Source: a virus. From it: a stretch of DNA of 40,733 nt. Below, piece after piece: positions 3,213-40,164 of this stretch (positions are counted from its first letter, which is position 1; every line of letters starts with the position of its first letter). The notes beneath the pieces were generated by a model that saw only the letters and a program-made list of their open reading frames with translations, was not told the origin of the DNA and did not search any database. Location of the stretch: positions 1 through 40,733 of IMG/VR virus record IMGVR_UViG_3300005821_000004. One strand, written 5' to 3'. A program made the position numbers and the translations under genes.

Positions 3213-3466
3213 CTGAAGTATCCCTTGACTTTATCGTAATCAATCTGTTTAGCGCGTAACTGTCTTTTGTAAACGGAAAATGAGCCGAATAGTTTTAATC
3301 CAAGCCAGATCCAGAAAAATATATTTAAGATTGATATACAAAAACTTAAAATAGCAAGATTCCATCCAGATAAATTGAGCGTATATCCTATTAACACAGA
3401 CATCAATACTGCTATAGGGCAGGCAATTAATACGCTAATAATTATTAATTTTGTATCTTTTCGCAT
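3209..3466 (-). CDS. Small two-helix membrane protein, 85 aa
   Basis: Two hydrophobic helices (about residues 7-29 and 34-62) with a basic C-terminal tail ([21 protein letters not shown]). The gene start lies 22 bases inside the end of csrA, and its stop overlaps the VRR-NUC start, so expression is coupled both ways. No family recognised. A phage inner-membrane protein in an early operon could act in superinfection exclusion, but nothing in the sequence shows this. Confidence 0.7.
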
Positions 3467-3639
3467 TTCTTCTCCTTCTCTTTCTGGATTTTTTTATATA
3501 TCTCCTCTCTATGGACAGAAAATTCTTTTGGCGCTTCTATTCCTAGCCTAATTTGATTTTTATTTATACTTAATATTTTAATTTTTATATCATCATTAAT
3601 AATTATGCTCTTCTCAATTTTTCTTGTTAAAATAAGCAT
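3445..3639 (-). CDS. csrA: CsrA/RsmA-type RNA-binding translational regulator
   Basis: A 64-aa CsrA homologue beginning [18 protein letters not shown] with the diagnostic [17 protein letters not shown]. The RNA-contacting Leu4/Arg6 and the VHREE arginine are present. CsrA dimers bind GGA-containing hairpins near ribosome sites and control translation and stability. The C-terminus is a short Lys/Glu tail, like many CsrA proteins. Start overlaps the YqaJ stop as TAATG. Here it could redirect host metabolism or time phage genes; many phage ribosome sites here contain AGGAG. Identification is firm, target is inference. Confidence 0.92.
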
Positions 3640-6974: not shown

Positions 6975-7241
6975 TTATTTATATTCCTCTATAAACACAA
7001 TTGGCAATGAATCAAGTAAATCATAGCCTTTATTCAAAGCTTTCTCAATAGATAATTGGAATTGATGTAAGTATGAAAGTTTTATATTGCCAGTATTTGT
7101 AGTATAGAAATAATCGCCTATTATATGTAATAGTTTTAGATCAGTTCGCCCCTTAAAAAAATTTTTGAACATATAGTAATAAGCATTTATATATTTATTA
7201 AATTCTTTTTGGGACTCATAAAATGTGAATTGATTGTTCAT
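6975..7241 (-). CDS. Hypothetical protein, 88 aa
   Basis: First gene of the four-gene leftward operon, with a strong ribosome site (AAAGGAGAAGT before ATG). The protein is aromatic-rich (NKYINAYYYMFKNFFKG) and otherwise helical. No recognised family. Being first after an early promoter next to the origin, it is probably expressed immediately after infection. Confidence 0.7.
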   Translation of the reverse strand: MNNQFTFYESQKEFNKYINAYYYMFKNFFKGRTDLKLLHIIGDYFYTTNTGNIKLSYLHQFQLSIEKALNKGYDLLDSLPIVFIEEYK

Positions 7242-7278: not shown

Positions 7279-7307
7279 ATTTGACAATAAAGCAAACCAA
7301 ATGTCAA
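7279..7307 (-). promoter_or_regulatory. Leftward promoter of the 7241-6072 operon
   Basis: On the minus strand TTGACA (7307-7302), 17 bp, TCAAAT (7284-7279); -35 is perfect and -10 matches 4 of 6. The span is also an inverted repeat (TTGACA at 7281-7286 and TGTCAA at 7302-7307). It gives a leader of about 30 bases to the ATG at 7241. Confidence 0.6.
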
Positions 7308-7366: not shown

Positions 7367-7394
7367 TTGACATATGAGTAAATATTGCTATACT
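7367..7394 (+). promoter_or_regulatory. Rightward promoter of the replication initiator, with operator half-site
   Basis: TTGACA (7367-7372), 16 bp, TATACT (7389-7394), a strong sigma70 promoter. The spacer contains ATATGAGTAAA (7372-7382), the exact reverse complement of the 11-mer at 5729-5739, so the HTH repressor probably occludes this promoter in the lysogen. Predicted start is near 7401, leaving a structured leader of over 120 nt before the ATG. Confidence 0.8.
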
Positions 7395-7404
7395 TCGATC
7401 AGGA

Positions 7405-7513
7405 TTAGCAGTCTGAGATACATTTTGGTAAAAACCTTTAACTGGTCGCTCATCCTTCGAAATGTATTTTTTGAAGACTGCTAAAACGAGTGGCCAGTTA
7501 AGGGTTTTTTTTT
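7405..7513 (+). terminator. Attenuator-like leader of the initiator mRNA
   Basis: Two long stems compete. Stem I pairs 7405-7414 with 7475-7484 (TTAGCAGTCT/AGACTGCTAA) and 7418-7428 with 7457-7467. Stem II pairs 7430-7451 with 7488-7509 in 22 consecutive pairs including three G-U, and runs straight into a nine-T tract (7505-7513). Stem II is an intrinsic terminator in form. Each stem's loop holds one arm of the other, so they are mutually exclusive or form a pseudoknot. Transcripts from 7401 would be stopped or let through depending on which forms. Confidence 0.75.
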
Positions 7514-7523
7514 GGGAGTTTCT

Positions 7524-8477
7524 ATGGGAAAGGAGATCGGTACCAAAAAATTTTACAATCCATACCGTCAATTTATAGGGGCGTTCATTCCTGATTGGCT
7601 ACTATCCAGAAAAGAATTATCATTCGGAGCCAAACTAGTATTTGGCATTCTCACAAAATCTGCCGGAGTTAATGGCGAATGCTATATTGGCCGCGAAAAA
7701 ATCGCAAATAATCTATCCGTTACCCCCAGAACCATACAAAAATATTTAAACGAATTATATCACTATGAATTGATATTAGCTGAGTCTAGATCACAATCAG
7801 GTGCTGAAGGAACTGGTGGTACAAATAAATATAAATTTTTAGATCACGCCTGGATTTCATGGAAAAATAAAGAGCTGGTTCACTTTGAGGTAGTGAACGA
7901 CCATTCACTAGGGGTAGTGAACGAGCGTTCAGGGGGGGTAGTGAAGAATTGGGTTTATCCACAGGTAGTGAACGAGCGTTCACTAGGGGTAGTGAAGAAT
8001 TGGGTAAAAGAAATCCCAAATCTTCCTAAGGGTAGTGAACGACCGTTCACAGGGGTAGTGAACGACCGTTCCCTACATATAAAAGAGATTTTAAAAGAAA
8101 CTTTAAAAGAATCCACTAAAAGGGAAAACCAAATTGTGGATAACTTTTATTTTTTTGAGGCTGCCGACCTCGACGCAGCAGAAGAAACCAGAGCTTTCGA
8201 GCTATTTATTACATCCTATCCAAAAAATCCGCACTTGATGAATTTACACCAACTGCGCCACAACTGGGTAAAGAGGCGCAAGGAGGACCATACCAGTAAA
8301 AAAATGATCGAGGGAGCAAAGTGGTTTCGAGAATGCTGTCGTAGCAAAAACCTAATTGGTGAAAGATCCGTAATGGGAATTAATCGATTTATCAGCGAAG
8401 AAAAGCATTTTTTGAACGACTGGAAAGCCGAGTACGAAGAATTACGTAGTTCACAGGGTTATAATCCACGAAACTAG
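7524..8477 (+). CDS. Replication initiator (winged HTH, lambda O-like role)
   Basis: A 317-aa protein with a winged helix-turn-helix at about residues 22-85 (PDWLLSRKELSFGAKLVFGI, then IGREKIANNLSVTPRTIQKY), typical of phage and plasmid replication initiators. Start at 7524 follows GGGAG by 5 bases. The middle (about residues 122-207) is low-complexity VVNDHSLGVV/VVNERSLGVV repeat. It is dictated by DNA iterons, so the gene carries its own origin as lambda O does. The C-terminal part (residues 210-317) is helical and basic, perhaps contacting a helicase or loader. No helicase gene is visible, so host DnaB is presumably recruited. Confidence 0.8.
   Translation: MGKEIGTKKFYNPYRQFIGAFIPDWLLSRKELSFGAKLVFGILTKSAGVNGECYIGREKIANNLSVTPRTIQKYLNELYHYELILAESRSQSGAEGTGGTNKYKFLDHAWISWKNKELVHFEVVNDHSLGVVNERSGGVVKNWVYPQVVNERSLGVVKNWVKEIPNLPKGSERPFTGVVNDRSLHIKEILKETLKESTKRENQIVDNFYFFEAADLDAAEETRAFELFITSYPKNPHLMNLHQLRHNWVKRRKEDHTSKKMIEGAKWFRECCRSKNLIGERSVMGINRFISEEKHFLNDWKAEYEELRSSQGYNPRN
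7889..8143. other. Replication origin: iterons, AT-rich region, DnaA boxes
   Basis: Five iterons GGTAGTGAACGANCGTTC start at 7889, 7913, 7964, 8031 and 8054. Each has the palindrome TGAACG-N2-CGTTCA or a one-base variant. Two degenerate copies (GGTAGTGAAGAATTGGGT) start at 7937 and 7988. A perfect DnaA box TTATCCACA is at 7955-7963, and its reverse complement TGTGGATAA is at 8135-8143. Between the last iteron and the second box lies about 60 bp of very A-rich DNA (8076-8134), a likely unwinding element. Confidence 0.85.
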
Positions 8478-8486
8478 GAGTGAATC

Positions 8487-8906
8487 ATGAAAGAAATAAA
8501 AAATATTGATAGGTTGATATTTGCAGCATTGGAAGAAATTAGCAAAATTGATAGGTTGATATTTGCAGCATTGGAAGAAATTAGCAAAAACACAAAATCT
8601 ATACTTGAGAAAATAGATGTATTGCAAGAGCAGCAAAAATCTGTAAATCAAACAGATCAAGCTAAAGAAAACCAATGGGCTACAGTGAAAGAAATATGTA
8701 ATTATTATCCTTCTTTTTCGGAGCCAGCGATGCGATGCATAATACACAATCGGATAAACAATGGGTTTGAGTGTTGCATTCGTCGGATCGGGAGAAAGCT
8801 ATTAATAAATTTGGCTGCTTTCGAAAATTGGATCAAAGACAAGCCTCGAGGATTTAAAAAAAAACAAACAGCCAAAATAAAGGCTGTAGAGCGATTATTT
8901 TCTTAA
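8487..8906 (+). CDS. Excisionase/MerR-like DNA-binding protein, 139 aa
   Basis: The C-terminal half (about residues 64-125: WATVKEICNYYPSFSEPAMR, then GRKLLINLAAFENWI) looks like a winged-helix excisionase-type DNA-binding domain with a basic tail. The N-terminus is a coiled coil containing a perfect 14-residue tandem duplication (IDRLIFAALEEISK twice). It lies 10 bases after the initiator gene and before the late promoter, the place where lambda has Q. It could be a late activator, Xis or replication accessory protein; I cannot tell which. Confidence 0.7.
   Translation: MKEIKNIDRLIFAALEEISKIDRLIFAALEEISKNTKSILEKIDVLQEQQKSVNQTDQAKENQWATVKEICNYYPSFSEPAMRCIIHNRINNGFECCIRRIGRKLLINLAAFENWIKDKPRGFKKKQTAKIKAVERLFS
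8505..8588 (+). repeat. Perfect 42-bp tandem duplication
   Basis: The 42-base unit beginning ATTGATAGGTTGATATTTGC occurs twice in a row (8505-8546 and 8547-8588), in frame. A fragment of this gene at 25737-25820 carries only one unit, so this duplication is probably recent. Confidence 0.95.
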
Positions 8907-29337: not shown

Positions 29338-31053
29338 ATGGCTACAATGTTTCAAATAATACAATTTTTAGATGGCAATGGCGATCCATATGATAGTGGT
29401 GCTGTTTTTTGGTATGAAGCTGGTACATCTACGCCTAAAGACACATGGGTAGATGAGGCTGAGTCGGCACCTGCTGCTAATCCTGTCCTTTTAGATAGTG
29501 ATGGACGTCCTGATCATGGAAGTGGTCCAGCTGCCATGTGGTTGCGCGGTTCATATAAAATGGTATTAAAAACCGGCCCAAATCCTACTGATCCTACTAT
29601 CATTACTGTTGATTATATCAACTTATATGATCAGATATATTTTACTGGTCTTACAGCAACTATTGCTGATTTAAACTCTACGTCTACTGTTGCTTTATTA
29701 AAAACTACTACTTATACAATAGCAATAGCAGATAGAGGAAAAACAATATTGGCAGATGCATCAGGTGGAGCTTTTACTATAAATCTTCCGCCTGCTGCAA
29801 TTGCTGGAGATAAATTCAAAGTAATTATTAAGAAGATAGATAACTCAATTAATGCTGTAACAATAGATCCAAATGCCTCTGAAACTATCGACACAAGAAC
29901 AACTTATTTGCTATATGATTATTTTGATTTTATTGAGGTCCATTGTGACGGTTCTAATTGGTTCGTGGTTTCCTCCCAGATCCGCGGGACGATTAGGACC
30001 GTCACATCTGTTACTACTCTAACAATAGATGATAACAATAAGGTTATTAATGCTGATGCAACGGGTGGTGCTTTTGCAATAAATCTACCCTCTGCTATAA
30101 CTGTTGGTAAAGGATGGAGTGTAACGGTAAAAAAAATAGATTCTTCATCAAATGGAATAGCTCTCACTCCTATAGGAGGGCAAACGATTGATGATATAGC
30201 AAGTGCTTTATTAGCAACCCAATATTTCGCTTTAACAATTAAAAGTGATGGGGCAGCTTATTTTAGTATATCTGAATTTGCCTCTGTTACTGCCGCAGGA
30301 GGTTTGCCATTAGGTTATATATATGGATTTCCAATTGAAGTTGATGCAGGCGATATACAGCATGATATTAAAATTGGAGAAGGAATTGGTAGAGGAACAA
30401 ATAATTTAACTAATATGTCAATTGGTGCTGTTGGTTTAATAAAGAAAATAGATGCTTCATGGACTGCTGGTAATAATGCAGGAGGTTTTCCAACTGGCAT
30501 TAGCTTAAGCTCTAACGTAATATATCATTGTTTTGTAATAGCCACAGCTGCTGGCGAAACAGATGGGGGTTTTGATACTTCAATATCTGCCTCAAATTTA
30601 TTAGCAGATGCGACTGGATATGTGGATTATCTGCGAATAGGTTCTTTCTATACAAACGGAAGTTCTAATATAGAAGCGTTTCAAACGCTTTATTCATTAG
30701 GAAAAAGTAGGTATTTTCAATATAAATCTCCTCTTCTAATCTTTACTGGGCAGCCTCCTACAACTCCTACACTGATAACAGCGCCTGTCCCTACTGGAAT
30801 TATAACAAAAGCTGTAGGAATGATTATTATAGAAAGCGCTCCTTACATACCGGCTAATGCAACATATAATATTTATTCTACTTTTGAGAATGCACGGCCA
30901 GGTTTTCAAATATATGATTCACAAGGCTCTCTTCATGGTGGAGGTGCCCAATTTCATGTTTTTACCGATGTGAATAGAGAATTTTATTTTTATCAAACTG
31001 GTTCATCTACGGGAGTTACGGCAGAGCTATATCTATATGGCTGGGAAGAATAA
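29338..31053 (+). CDS. Tailspike / receptor-binding protein, 571 aa
   Basis: N-terminal domain (residues 1-100: FQIIQFLDGNGDPYDSGAVF, YEAGTSTPKDTWVDEAES, NPVLLDSDGRPDHG) is the common phage-tailspike attachment domain. Two related beta-modules follow at about 118-212 and 217-315 (ADASGGAFTINLPPA versus NADATGGAFAINLPSA), then a receptor-facing C-terminal region. No glycosidase catalytic residues can be identified. It attaches to the tail hub and probably recognises surface polysaccharide. Confidence 0.75.
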   Translation: MATMFQIIQFLDGNGDPYDSGAVFWYEAGTSTPKDTWVDEAESAPAANPVLLDSDGRPDHGSGPAAMWLRGSYKMVLKTGPNPTDPTIITVDYINLYDQIYFTGLTATIADLNSTSTVALLKTTTYTIAIADRGKTILADASGGAFTINLPPAAIAGDKFKVIIKKIDNSINAVTIDPNASETIDTRTTYLLYDYFDFIEVHCDGSNWFVVSSQIRGTIRTVTSVTTLTIDDNNKVINADATGGAFAINLPSAITVGKGWSVTVKKIDSSSNGIALTPIGGQTIDDIASALLATQYFALTIKSDGAAYFSISEFASVTAAGGLPLGYIYGFPIEVDAGDIQHDIKIGEGIGRGTNNLTNMSIGAVGLIKKIDASWTAGNNAGGFPTGISLSSNVIYHCFVIATAAGETDGGFDTSISASNLLADATGYVDYLRIGSFYTNGSSNIEAFQTLYSLGKSRYFQYKSPLLIFTGQPPTTPTLITAPVPTGIITKAVGMIIIESAPYIPANATYNIYSTFENARPGFQIYDSQGSLHGGGAQFHVFTDVNREFYFYQTGSSTGVTAELYLYGWEE

Positions 31054-37660: not shown

Positions 37661-38089
37661 ATGAGTATTTTTAGTGCCATAGCTGCTATTTTTAGCGGCG
37701 GCATTGAGAAACCGATTAATGCTACCTTTAAAGGGCTTGATGAATTGTTCACCAGCGATGAAGAAATGGCCAAAGCTAATGCTAATTTAGAAAAAATCAA
37801 GCAGAATCCCGCGTTATGGGATTTCCTTATTCAATCAATAGAATCTAATAATAGAAGTGTTTTTGTGTCTGGAGCTAGACCTTTCATTTTTTGGGTAATA
37901 GGATTAAGTTTAGCATTATATTTAATCCCTCAATTTGGAATAATTGCATATTTATGGGCGCGAGAATGCTTAATCACTCATACATTAGCCCATTATCCGG
38001 TAGATTCTAAAGAATTAATAGAATTATTGGGGGCAGCTCTATCTCTATATGTATGTCGTGCTTTTGAAAAGGGGAAGGGAGGCAAATAA
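37661..38089 (+). CDS. Holin (3TM family)
   Basis: A 142-aa protein. The N-terminal 60 residues are soluble, with FKGLDELFTSDEEMAKANAN. Next is SGARPFIFWVIGLSLALYLI (about residues 70-89), the hallmark of the GTA-type 3TM holin family. More hydrophobic helices follow (FGIIAYLWAREC and IELLGAALSLYVCRAF). It would permeabilise the inner membrane to release the M15 endolysin. The stop overlaps the radical SAM start as TAATG. Confidence 0.82.
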   Translation: MSIFSAIAAIFSGGIEKPINATFKGLDELFTSDEEMAKANANLEKIKQNPALWDFLIQSIESNNRSVFVSGARPFIFWVIGLSLALYLIPQFGIIAYLWARECLITHTLAHYPVDSKELIELLGAALSLYVCRAFEKGKGGK

Positions 38090-39009
38090 TGCCAATAAAA
38101 TCTATATTAGAAACGACAGATGAGCATATGCGTATTTCTAAAGATAAATTAGCACTTAAGCCACCATTTCCAGATAAAATCAAAATAGAATTAAGCTCTT
38201 ATTGCAATTATAGCTGTCTTGGATGCGCTAACAAGAAAGGATTACGGCCGCAGGGAAACATTGATAAGGATGTTTTATATAAAATAGTTAAGGAAGCAAA
38301 AAAAATAGGTGTTAAAGAAATAGAGCTATTTTTACTTGGAGAATTATTTCCACTTGATGAATTAACTGAATATATTGGATATATAAAAAATAAAATAGGT
38401 ATTGAATGTGTTTCTGTAGCTACAAATGGCTCTAGCGCGTCTCTAGATCGTTTAATGCCAATGATAACAAACTCTCTAGATAGTATTAAATTTTCAATTA
38501 ATGCGCCTAATAAAGAGATATATTTAGAAAAACATGGAACAGATAATTTTGAGTTAGTTATCAATAATGTAAAAAATCTTTACACTTACGTAAAGAATAA
38601 TAAAATAAAGAAATTCAATATAAGTATAAGTTCTATATATGATGAAAAATATAAAGATGAATATGAGAAATTCAAGAATGAAATATCTGAATATGTAGAT
38701 AACTTTTATTATTTGCCTATTTGCAAGCAATCTAAGAATCATAATGGCGGGTGTATTATTAGTAACTTTGGATGTTTGGATATGGTTCCAGACGTTCCTT
38801 GCTCATCATTATTTGGCTCAGCTAAAGTTACATGGAATGGATATTTAACAGCATGTTATTTCGGACATGATCGACGTTTTGAAATAGTTAATTTAAGAGA
38901 GATATCTCTTTTAAAAGCTTGGAATCATAATAAGTTTAAAAGCATACGTAGTGATCATTTGTACGCAACATTAAAAGGATCATTATGCTCCAAGTGCTTG
39001 AATATTTAA
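38089..39009 (+). CDS. Radical SAM enzyme with SPASM/twitch-type C-terminus
   Basis: A 306-aa enzyme. The [4Fe-4S]-SAM motif is C39-x3-C43-x2-C46 (SSYCNYSCLGCANKKGLRP). The TIM-barrel part includes GVKEIELFLLGELFP and VSVATNGS (typical radical SAM strands). The C-terminal cysteines C238-x17-C256 and C300-x2-C303 (VTWNGYLTACYFGH; CSKC) suit an auxiliary cluster. Family members modify peptides, proteins, sugars or cofactors. It is coupled to the holin gene, so it is made late or as a moron. Substrate unknown. Confidence 0.85.
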   Translation: MPIKSILETTDEHMRISKDKLALKPPFPDKIKIELSSYCNYSCLGCANKKGLRPQGNIDKDVLYKIVKEAKKIGVKEIELFLLGELFPLDELTEYIGYIKNKIGIECVSVATNGSSASLDRLMPMITNSLDSIKFSINAPNKEIYLEKHGTDNFELVINNVKNLYTYVKNNKIKKFNISISSIYDEKYKDEYEKFKNEISEYVDNFYYLPICKQSKNHNGGCIISNFGCLDMVPDVPCSSLFGSAKVTWNGYLTACYFGHDRRFEIVNLREISLLKAWNHNKFKSIRSDHLYATLKGSLCSKCLNI

Positions 39010-39274: not shown

Positions 39275-39601
39275 ATGTACTCATTATCTAAAATAATATG
39301 TGAGTTAAAAAATAGTAATTCTTTAATAAATGATATAAAAGATCGTCTAGAGATTCTATATAAACGTTCTGATAATAATATAACCAATGAAATAGTTCTC
39401 TTAATAAATGAGATTTTGGACAATAGCCAGATGGCGCTTATTTGGCAAAGAAATATTAGTCTAGCTATAGATATGGGCGCTCTTTTATTAAAGAATGAGC
39501 ATACCTCAAGCACTATTGAGGAAATAATTGAATGCTTAGAGACAACTATAGATCATCTGAAATGCGATGCCCAATCAAAAAAGAATATTTACATTTCTTA
39601 A
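39275..39601 (+). CDS. Helical hypothetical protein, 108 aa
   Basis: All-helical soluble protein (IICELKNSNSLINDIKDRLE, TNEIVLLINEILDNSQMALI). Its stop overlaps that of the integrase, to which it is convergent. Together with the membrane gene before it, it forms a two-gene unit with its own promoter, an arrangement often seen for lysogenic-conversion cargo. No domain recognised. Confidence 0.65.
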   Translation: MYSLSKIICELKNSNSLINDIKDRLEILYKRSDNNITNEIVLLINEILDNSQMALIWQRNISLAIDMGALLLKNEHTSSTIEEIIECLETTIDHLKCDAQSKKNIYIS

Positions 39602-40164
39602 GGCCAGAAAGAATCAAATTTATTAGTGATTAATTCTGTATATCTAACCGTATGCTGAATGTTTCTATGACCTAGATAATGTTGAATTACCCTAATGTCA
39701 TGCCCATCATTGACAAGCTTGCAGGCAATCGCGTGCCTCAGCATATGCGGGTGGATGGGAAAGTCAAACCCTGCTTGCTCACCTGCGCGCTTTATTATTC
39801 TTTGAAAAGTGGAAGGGGAAAGGGGGACTTTATATTCTGAAATAAACACATATGGGGTATGAATTGATTCTTTCTGTAATCTTCTCAAAGCGCGAATTTC
39901 TTTAGAGGGCATTGGATGTATGCTTCTAACCCCCCGCTTTAACCGTGTAATATCTATACTTCCAGTTTCAAAATTTATTTGTGCCCATTTTAGCCCTAGA
40001 AGCTCTGAAATCCTGAACCCATGAATATAACCGACCAAAATCATAGTAGAATCTCGGTGATGATGTCGTCCAGACATGCGCGCAGCTTTAATCAATCTAT
40101 CTACCTCACTTGAAGTAAGATACTCGCGAGGACGCACATCTTTATTTTTAGGACGTTTTACCAT
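39598..40164 (-). CDS. Short tyrosine recombinase (integrase)
   Basis: A 188-aa catalytic-domain-only recombinase, similar in size to FimB/FimE. Active-site residues: R51 (HGFRISE), K76, H140-x2-R143 (HPHMLRH), H166 (HYLGHRN) and nucleophile Y175 (VRYTEL). It lacks the arm-binding and most of the core-binding N-terminal domain of full phage integrases. It would integrate and excise the genome, the attP being most likely in 40165-40290. An Xis candidate is the 8487 gene. The leader is about 120 nt from its promoter. Confidence 0.88.
   Translation of the reverse strand: MVKRPKNKDVRPREYLTSSEVDRLIKAARMSGRHHHRDSTMILVGYIHGFRISELLGLKWAQINFETGSIDITRLKRGVRSIHPMPSKEIRALRRLQKESIHTPYVFISEYKVPLSPSTFQRIIKRAGEQAGFDFPIHPHMLRHAIACKLVNDGHDIRVIQHYLGHRNIQHTVRYTELITNKFDSFWP

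Follow-up and report, generated by a model that had tools for sequence, protein, structure and literature searches.

The window analysed here, by which we mean the whole stretch of 40,733 bases of a virus record, derives from a tailed phage with genes for RecT, a YqaJ exonuclease, CsrA, an integrase domain, terminase, and portal. A near-consensus promoter and a structured leader sit between a leftward gene (6975-7241) and a rightward gene (7524-8477) for a replication initiator. The features of this region are as follows, with S1 to S4 denoting the arms of two interleaved helices.

7367..7394, + strand: sigma-70-type promoter, TTGACA-16-TATACT with TG ahead of the -10; 11 of 12 consensus letters, the best site of the region
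7405-7414 (lower part) and 7415-7428 (upper part), + strand: S1, 5' arm of the putative antiterminator helix, pairing with S3 (24 pairs including G-U)
7430..7451, + strand: S2, 5' arm of the predicted terminator, within the S1:S3 loop, 1 nt past S1; 22 continuous pairs with S4
7455..7476, + strand: hairpin H, 7455-7462 with 7469-7476, loop 7463-7468; present in the minimum-energy fold
7457..7484, + strand: S3, 3' arm of the putative antiterminator helix, with a bulge at 7471-7474
7488..7509, + strand: S4, 3' arm of the predicted terminator
7505..7513, + strand: U9 tract, predicted termination site; the window's strongest hairpin plus T-run (-35.4 kcal/mol)
7514..7518, + strand: ribosome-binding site GGGAG, read from the sequence
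7524..8477, + strand: phage replication initiator, 317 aa, with an HTH_36 domain; PHROG 270, replication initiation protein
7889..8076, + strand: several copies of the repeat GGTAGTGAACGA(C/G)CGTTCAC, direct and inverted, within the initiator gene

The promoter ends about 6 nt ahead of the leader, and the predicted transcript start at about 7401 coincides with the leader start reported in the first-pass annotation of this DNA. The initiator ATG at 7524 stands 5 nt past GGGAG. The repeats inside the initiator gene are probable origin iterons in a lambda-like arrangement, as lambda O likewise carries repeats inside its own gene. For the initiator itself, searches of viral contigs, genome contigs, and plasmids gave no homolog, two weak matches in phages covered the HTH only, and PHROG 270 homologs in other records matched weakly. 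The leader DNA had no match in phages, exact arm patterns returned either nothing or one unrelated assembly palindrome, and relatives of the terminase, portal, and capsid proteins were distant or came without an early region. One contig end (L071, 5426-5504) folds back on itself, likely as an assembly hairpin, and is a chance match to the S1/S3 arm pattern.

Two interleaved helices in the initiator leader

The first-pass annotation had described two long, mutually exclusive stems filling the leader, and both are found in place, at a strength beyond that of shuffled sequences. The first of them, S1:S3, differs in detail from that description: instead of 21 bp with a small internal loop, it has 24 pairs with G-U allowed, made of 7405-7414/7475-7484 (10 pairs) and 7415-7428/7457-7470 (14 pairs) around a 4-nt bulge. 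The second, S2:S4, is exactly as described, with 22 continuous pairs (7430-7451/7488-7509), three of them G-U, merging into nine Ts (7505-7513) that lead up to the ribosome site. The four arms follow one another in the order S1-S2-S3-S4, separated by linkers of 1, 5, and 3 nt. The two helices have no base in common and are nevertheless mutually exclusive, because S2 forms the loop of S1:S3. From this geometry we infer that the full 24-bp and 22-bp helices could not coexist, which argues against a stable H-type pseudoknot containing both stems, the other arrangement that had been suggested; a partial pseudoknot may occur as a folding intermediate. The loop of hairpin H belongs to S3 and is complementary to upper S1.

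The S2:S4 hairpin alone reaches -30.6 kcal/mol and is directly followed by U9, as in an intrinsic terminator, with an unusually long loop of 36 nt. Together with U9 it ranks first among the 193 hairpin-plus-T-run sites of the window. The leader as a whole folds to -40.4 kcal/mol, whereas 200 shuffles give -25.5 +/- 3.5 (z -4.3). Its interleaved-stem score is 71.5 and its single-stem score 47.5, compared with at most 56.5 and 36.5, respectively, in 30 whole-window shuffles, none of which matches the leader.

Seven of the 46 leader pairs are non-Watson-Crick. All seven are G-U when read on the + strand, with no A-C, and the - strand folds to -26.2 kcal/mol only. The wobbles and the weaker - strand fold therefore favor an RNA read rightward from the + strand over a DNA site, and this is what the leader helices point to. 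The helices adjoin the ribosome site and lie near the probable origin, and they might accordingly be thought to act on translation, on mRNA stability, or as a DNA signal such as an operator or a replication structure, rather than on termination. The U9 tract, the strand asymmetry of the wobbles, and a ribosome site that is largely unpaired in both alternative folds make such a role very improbable.

The same layout in other phages

RecT relatives supplied 29 phage loci. When all loci were scanned for architecture only, leaders on the same plan appeared in L009 and L010, and a dedicated detector added L014, L015, and L018. All five stand directly upstream of the gene for a YqaJ/RecE-like exonuclease in a YqaJ-RecT operon. 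The strict detector, run on 61 sequences (60 fetched phage loci and the window), gave six matches, namely the window and these five, each with a ribosome site and an ATG behind it, and none in eight shuffled sets; as its thresholds were chosen after the real matches were known, the shuffles show rarity and are not an unbiased p-value. The window leader has every element that defines this class, i.e., interleaved helices, S1 abutting S2, a terminator, a U run, a ribosome site, and an ATG.

Blast searches from the YqaJ-RecT leaders led to Pseudomonas phage AH02, Burkholderia phages BcepMigl, DC1, BcepIL02, and CSP3, and phage Lbo-JY16. In the four Burkholderia phages, all Lessieviruses, the leader precedes the replication operon and has an invariant UUGGCGG/CCGCCAA along with a strongly covarying terminator and kissing helix:

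L072, 2443-2561: Lessievirus leader before the replication operon
L154, 1530-1649: Lessievirus leader before the replication operon
L155, 1543-1660: Lessievirus leader before the replication operon
L156, 1514-1631: Lessievirus leader before the replication operon

The initial impression was that the arrangement is unusual in front of an O-like gene of a phage; these four replication operons and several YqaJ-RecT operons also have it ahead of them. Phage AH02 (L158) has two leaders that belong to different sequence groups, one at 22.5-22.7 kb (- strand) before a leftward operon and one at 29,526-29,643 (+ strand) before gene 51. The ORF annotated as AH02 gene 28 overlaps the first of them. BcepMigl has a further candidate at 15.3-15.4 kb, which was judged to be a chance match, and a group B leader had no blastn match in E. 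coli genomes and plasmids.

The window leader shares with the YqaJ-RecT, Lessievirus, AH02, and JY16 leaders the order S1-S2-S3-S4, the abutting of S1 and S2, a hairpin H whose loop contains part of S3, a terminator of 18-22 pairs, a U-rich tail, a ribosome site, and an ATG. It differs from them in lacking a small P4 hairpin and in its lower stem, which reads UUAGCAG/CUGCUAA in place of the invariant UUGGCGG/CCGCCAA, a difference of two pair-preserving changes; the likeness of these stems may reflect homology or chance. The terminators also differ in that most of the other leaders have a single mismatch after nine outer S2:S4 pairs, whereas the window has only a U-G wobble at the eighth pair. 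The mismatch is present in six of eight tabulated leaders, and five group A leaders likewise show nine outer pairs followed by one mismatch, a pattern that would suit a terminator zipping in two stages.

Nine leaders were aligned (L010, L009, L076, AH02b, JY16, BcepMigl, DC1, BcepIL02, and CSP3), which make up sequence family R1. Standard pairs fill 93.1% of the cells (74.2% in shuffles), 21 of the 39 pairs are altered on both sides with pairing kept (12.7 in shuffles), and covariation scores 0.536 (0.168 in shuffles). None of 500 shuffles attained any of these three values, and pairing dropped to 37-50% when the partner was shifted by 1-3 columns. Pairing in S2:S4 reaches 98.8%, 15 of its 18 pairs covary, and when the S4 arms were dealt among the leaders the observed pairing was attained in 0 of 20,000 tries. 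Upper S1:S3, aligned by hand since MAFFT misaligns it, is 97.5% paired with all five pairs covarying, and the counterpart of hairpin H covaries at three of its five pairs. Lower S1:S3, in contrast, is UUGGCGG/CCGCCAA in all nine leaders. As it never varies, the sequence itself seems to be constrained here as well as the pairing.

Covariation in relatives, the check proposed in the first-pass annotation, is thus strong in nine related leaders of other phages; a homolog of the window leader that could extend it to the window was not found. The nine-leader covariance model with default filters gave no match at 7401-7523, and with filters off it scored the window leader at 15.7 bits on S2:S4 and the tail only. 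Group A leaders were likewise missed by this model. On sequence comparison, then, the window leader appears to resemble the others by architecture and not by sequence, and either common descent or convergence could account for the resemblance.

Folding order and a proposed attenuator

Nested energies, which leave out pseudoknots and kinetics, make S1:S3 the best fold from the emergence of S3 (-25.7 kcal/mol at 7484) to about 7504, after which S2:S4 takes over (-34.2 kcal/mol at 7505). By these energies there are two mutually exclusive folds of which the non-terminating one comes first, as expected of an attenuator. Folding the window leader and 11 others, drawn from three sequence groups, places the cross-over -7 to +2 nt from the first U in every one of the 12, although this position is partly trivial, S4 having to be nearly complete. 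It is near the point where the decision to terminate must fall. About ten inner pairs of S2:S4 amount to -15.8 kcal/mol. These could form inside the S1:S3 loop, whereas the outer pairs beside the U tract, which release requires, presumably could not.

We therefore offer the following model for 7401-7523. S1:S3 would fold first on the emerging RNA and enclose S2 in its loop. S4, once it emerges, could then pair with the end of S2 that the loop leaves exposed, but would zip to the U tract and release the polymerase only if S1:S3 is broken. With S1:S3 intact, the polymerase would pass the U tract and the initiator would be made; with S1:S3 opened or unformed, transcription would terminate at S2:S4, immediately ahead of the ribosome site, giving a short RNA about 110 nt long. 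Some signal would presumably tip the balance between the two helices. Termination probably occurs, with S1:S3 as the read-through state. A cis-acting transcription attenuator between the strong promoter and the initiator gene is the reading that we hold to be reasonably probable, and it is the most economical one, with S1:S3 as antiterminator and S2:S4 as terminator. The near-consensus promoter, the exclusive folds, the U9 terminator, and a layout that covaries in other phages all speak for the antiterminator/terminator switch that had been proposed at the outset.

As for what might operate such an attenuator, S1 begins about 4 nt past the predicted transcript start, and no ATG with a ribosome site lies ahead of S3. 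A leader peptide of the trp type is therefore unlikely, there being too little room for it. A leader peptide in group A was also considered and rejected, as the sequence comparison showed that the reading frame is not kept.

Known attenuators and antitermination systems

Antisense-controlled transcription attenuators govern plasmid rep genes such as those of pT181 and pIP501. As in the window, their rep leaders can adopt alternative folds, and one of the folds places a terminator ahead of the ribosome site. Control of this kind, with an antisense RNA from the opposite strand promoting termination, was mentioned in the first-pass annotation as frequent for plasmid rep genes; it is unsupported here, and we regard it as quite unlikely. 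The rep-leader layout and a weak - strand promoter-like site at 7577-7550 (8/12) would fit, but no - strand site of at least 9/12 lies in or just behind the leader, and the wobbles, being G-U only on the + strand, favor a structure of that strand. Unlike in the plasmid systems, moreover, the window antiterminator encloses S2 in its loop and shares no arm with the terminator.

In lambda, the pR'-tR' region controlled by Q consists of a strong promoter, a short leader, and a terminator, followed by genes that are made only on read-through. The window has the same succession of elements, except that its leader precedes a replication gene and not late genes. Q is also described in PMC4825925.

Phage P4 halts its own replication genes by RNA-mediated premature termination, and in Gifsy-1 the small RNA IsrK arises by termination, while the corresponding read-through transcript serves as an mRNA (PMC4825925). 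Both resemble the window in having replication or regulatory phage genes behind a leader with premature termination, which is regulated in those systems and predicted in the window. With these precedents, and with a strong terminator within about 110 nt of a strong promoter, the locus could be a promoter-terminator unit making a stable small RNA that acts in trans in immunity or autoregulation, in the style of P4 CI RNA or IsrK, the read-through product being the initiator mRNA. In nine leaders S2:S4 and upper S1:S3 diverge fast, as specificity sequences would, while lower S1:S3 is fixed, but ordinary compensatory drift also explains the divergence. The arms are mostly consumed by intramolecular pairing, the window holds no second complementary site of at least 13 nt, and, unlike for P4 CI RNA and IsrK, no separate processed RNA, target site, or Rfam match was found in it. 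Rfam 15 gave only a tRNA over the whole window at the gathering score, only sub-threshold miRNA models on the leader, and nothing at E 0.1 on six related loci. We consider a trans-acting RNA unlikely, if the foremost of the alternatives.

The putL site of HK022 sits just behind an early promoter, and put RNA is about 70 nt long with two consecutive stem-loops (PMC9378689). The present leaders are also structured RNAs right behind early promoters, and AH02 has two per genome, one each in a leftward and a rightward operon. An antitermination RNA of this type would modify RNA polymerase to pass the built-in terminator and later ones, and the invariance of lower S1:S3 in nine leaders from different phages would agree with it. 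However, put has no built-in terminator and its stem-loops are consecutive, whereas in the window the arms interleave and lead into a terminator. The sequences of the two leaders in AH02 differ, and the detector returned nothing from the D3 and HK022 early regions; its one weak, AT-rich match in P22, at the gtrA promoter, was judged to be chance. We regard a put-like function as improbable.

In the open-access literature we found no description of a leader of this kind, which is weak evidence, as subscription journals were mostly outside the scope of the search. A table of predicted terminators has been published for JC1, a Bcep22-like phage (PMC9144972). The interleaved leader appears to represent a type of built-in on/off switch not previously described. 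More tentatively, and at somewhat less than even confidence, we propose that loop-sequestering attenuators form a recurrent class, not described so far, that controls the replication and recombination operons of many phages. In these, kissing between S1 and the loop of hairpin H would hold the terminator's 5' arm, and the initiator would be timed by a factor recognizing the conserved lower stem or by the RNA itself acting in trans. If this is true, phages act on elongation to control the onset of replication and recombination, and do so with an RNA device missed in annotation, probably since terminator finders and Rfam expect no terminator loop that holds an antiterminator arm. It would add a further phage strategy to protein antitermination (N and Q) and put RNA. 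The layout is present in the cultured phages BcepMigl, BcepIL02, DC1, CSP3, and AH02, which makes the mechanism directly testable.

CsrA was considered as a general trigger and dropped, as AH02, which is complete, lacks CsrA but has two leaders; the Lessieviruses do encode CsrA. The window phage carries its own csrA gene (3445-3639, - strand; Pfam PF02599, E 1.6e-24), and GGA motifs are present at the 5' end of the leader and around the initiator start codon. Control of the initiator mRNA by CsrA is conceivable in this phage.

A few other features of the window deserve mention. In the divergent intergenic region, the inverted repeat TTGACA-N15-TGTCAA (7281-7307) is possibly an operator or a piece of a leftward promoter. 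The gene behind the initiator starts with a direct duplication in which IDRLIFAALEEISK occurs twice (8487-8600). A long low-complexity region of several similar blocks (1384-2856) encodes DQDPDQDP-type repeats on one strand and W/S/G-rich repeats on the other. The integrase (39598-40164, - strand) has 188 aa only, which cover the catalytic domain, and may be a truncated or partial gene. The phage also encodes a Radical SAM / SPASM protein (38089-39009).
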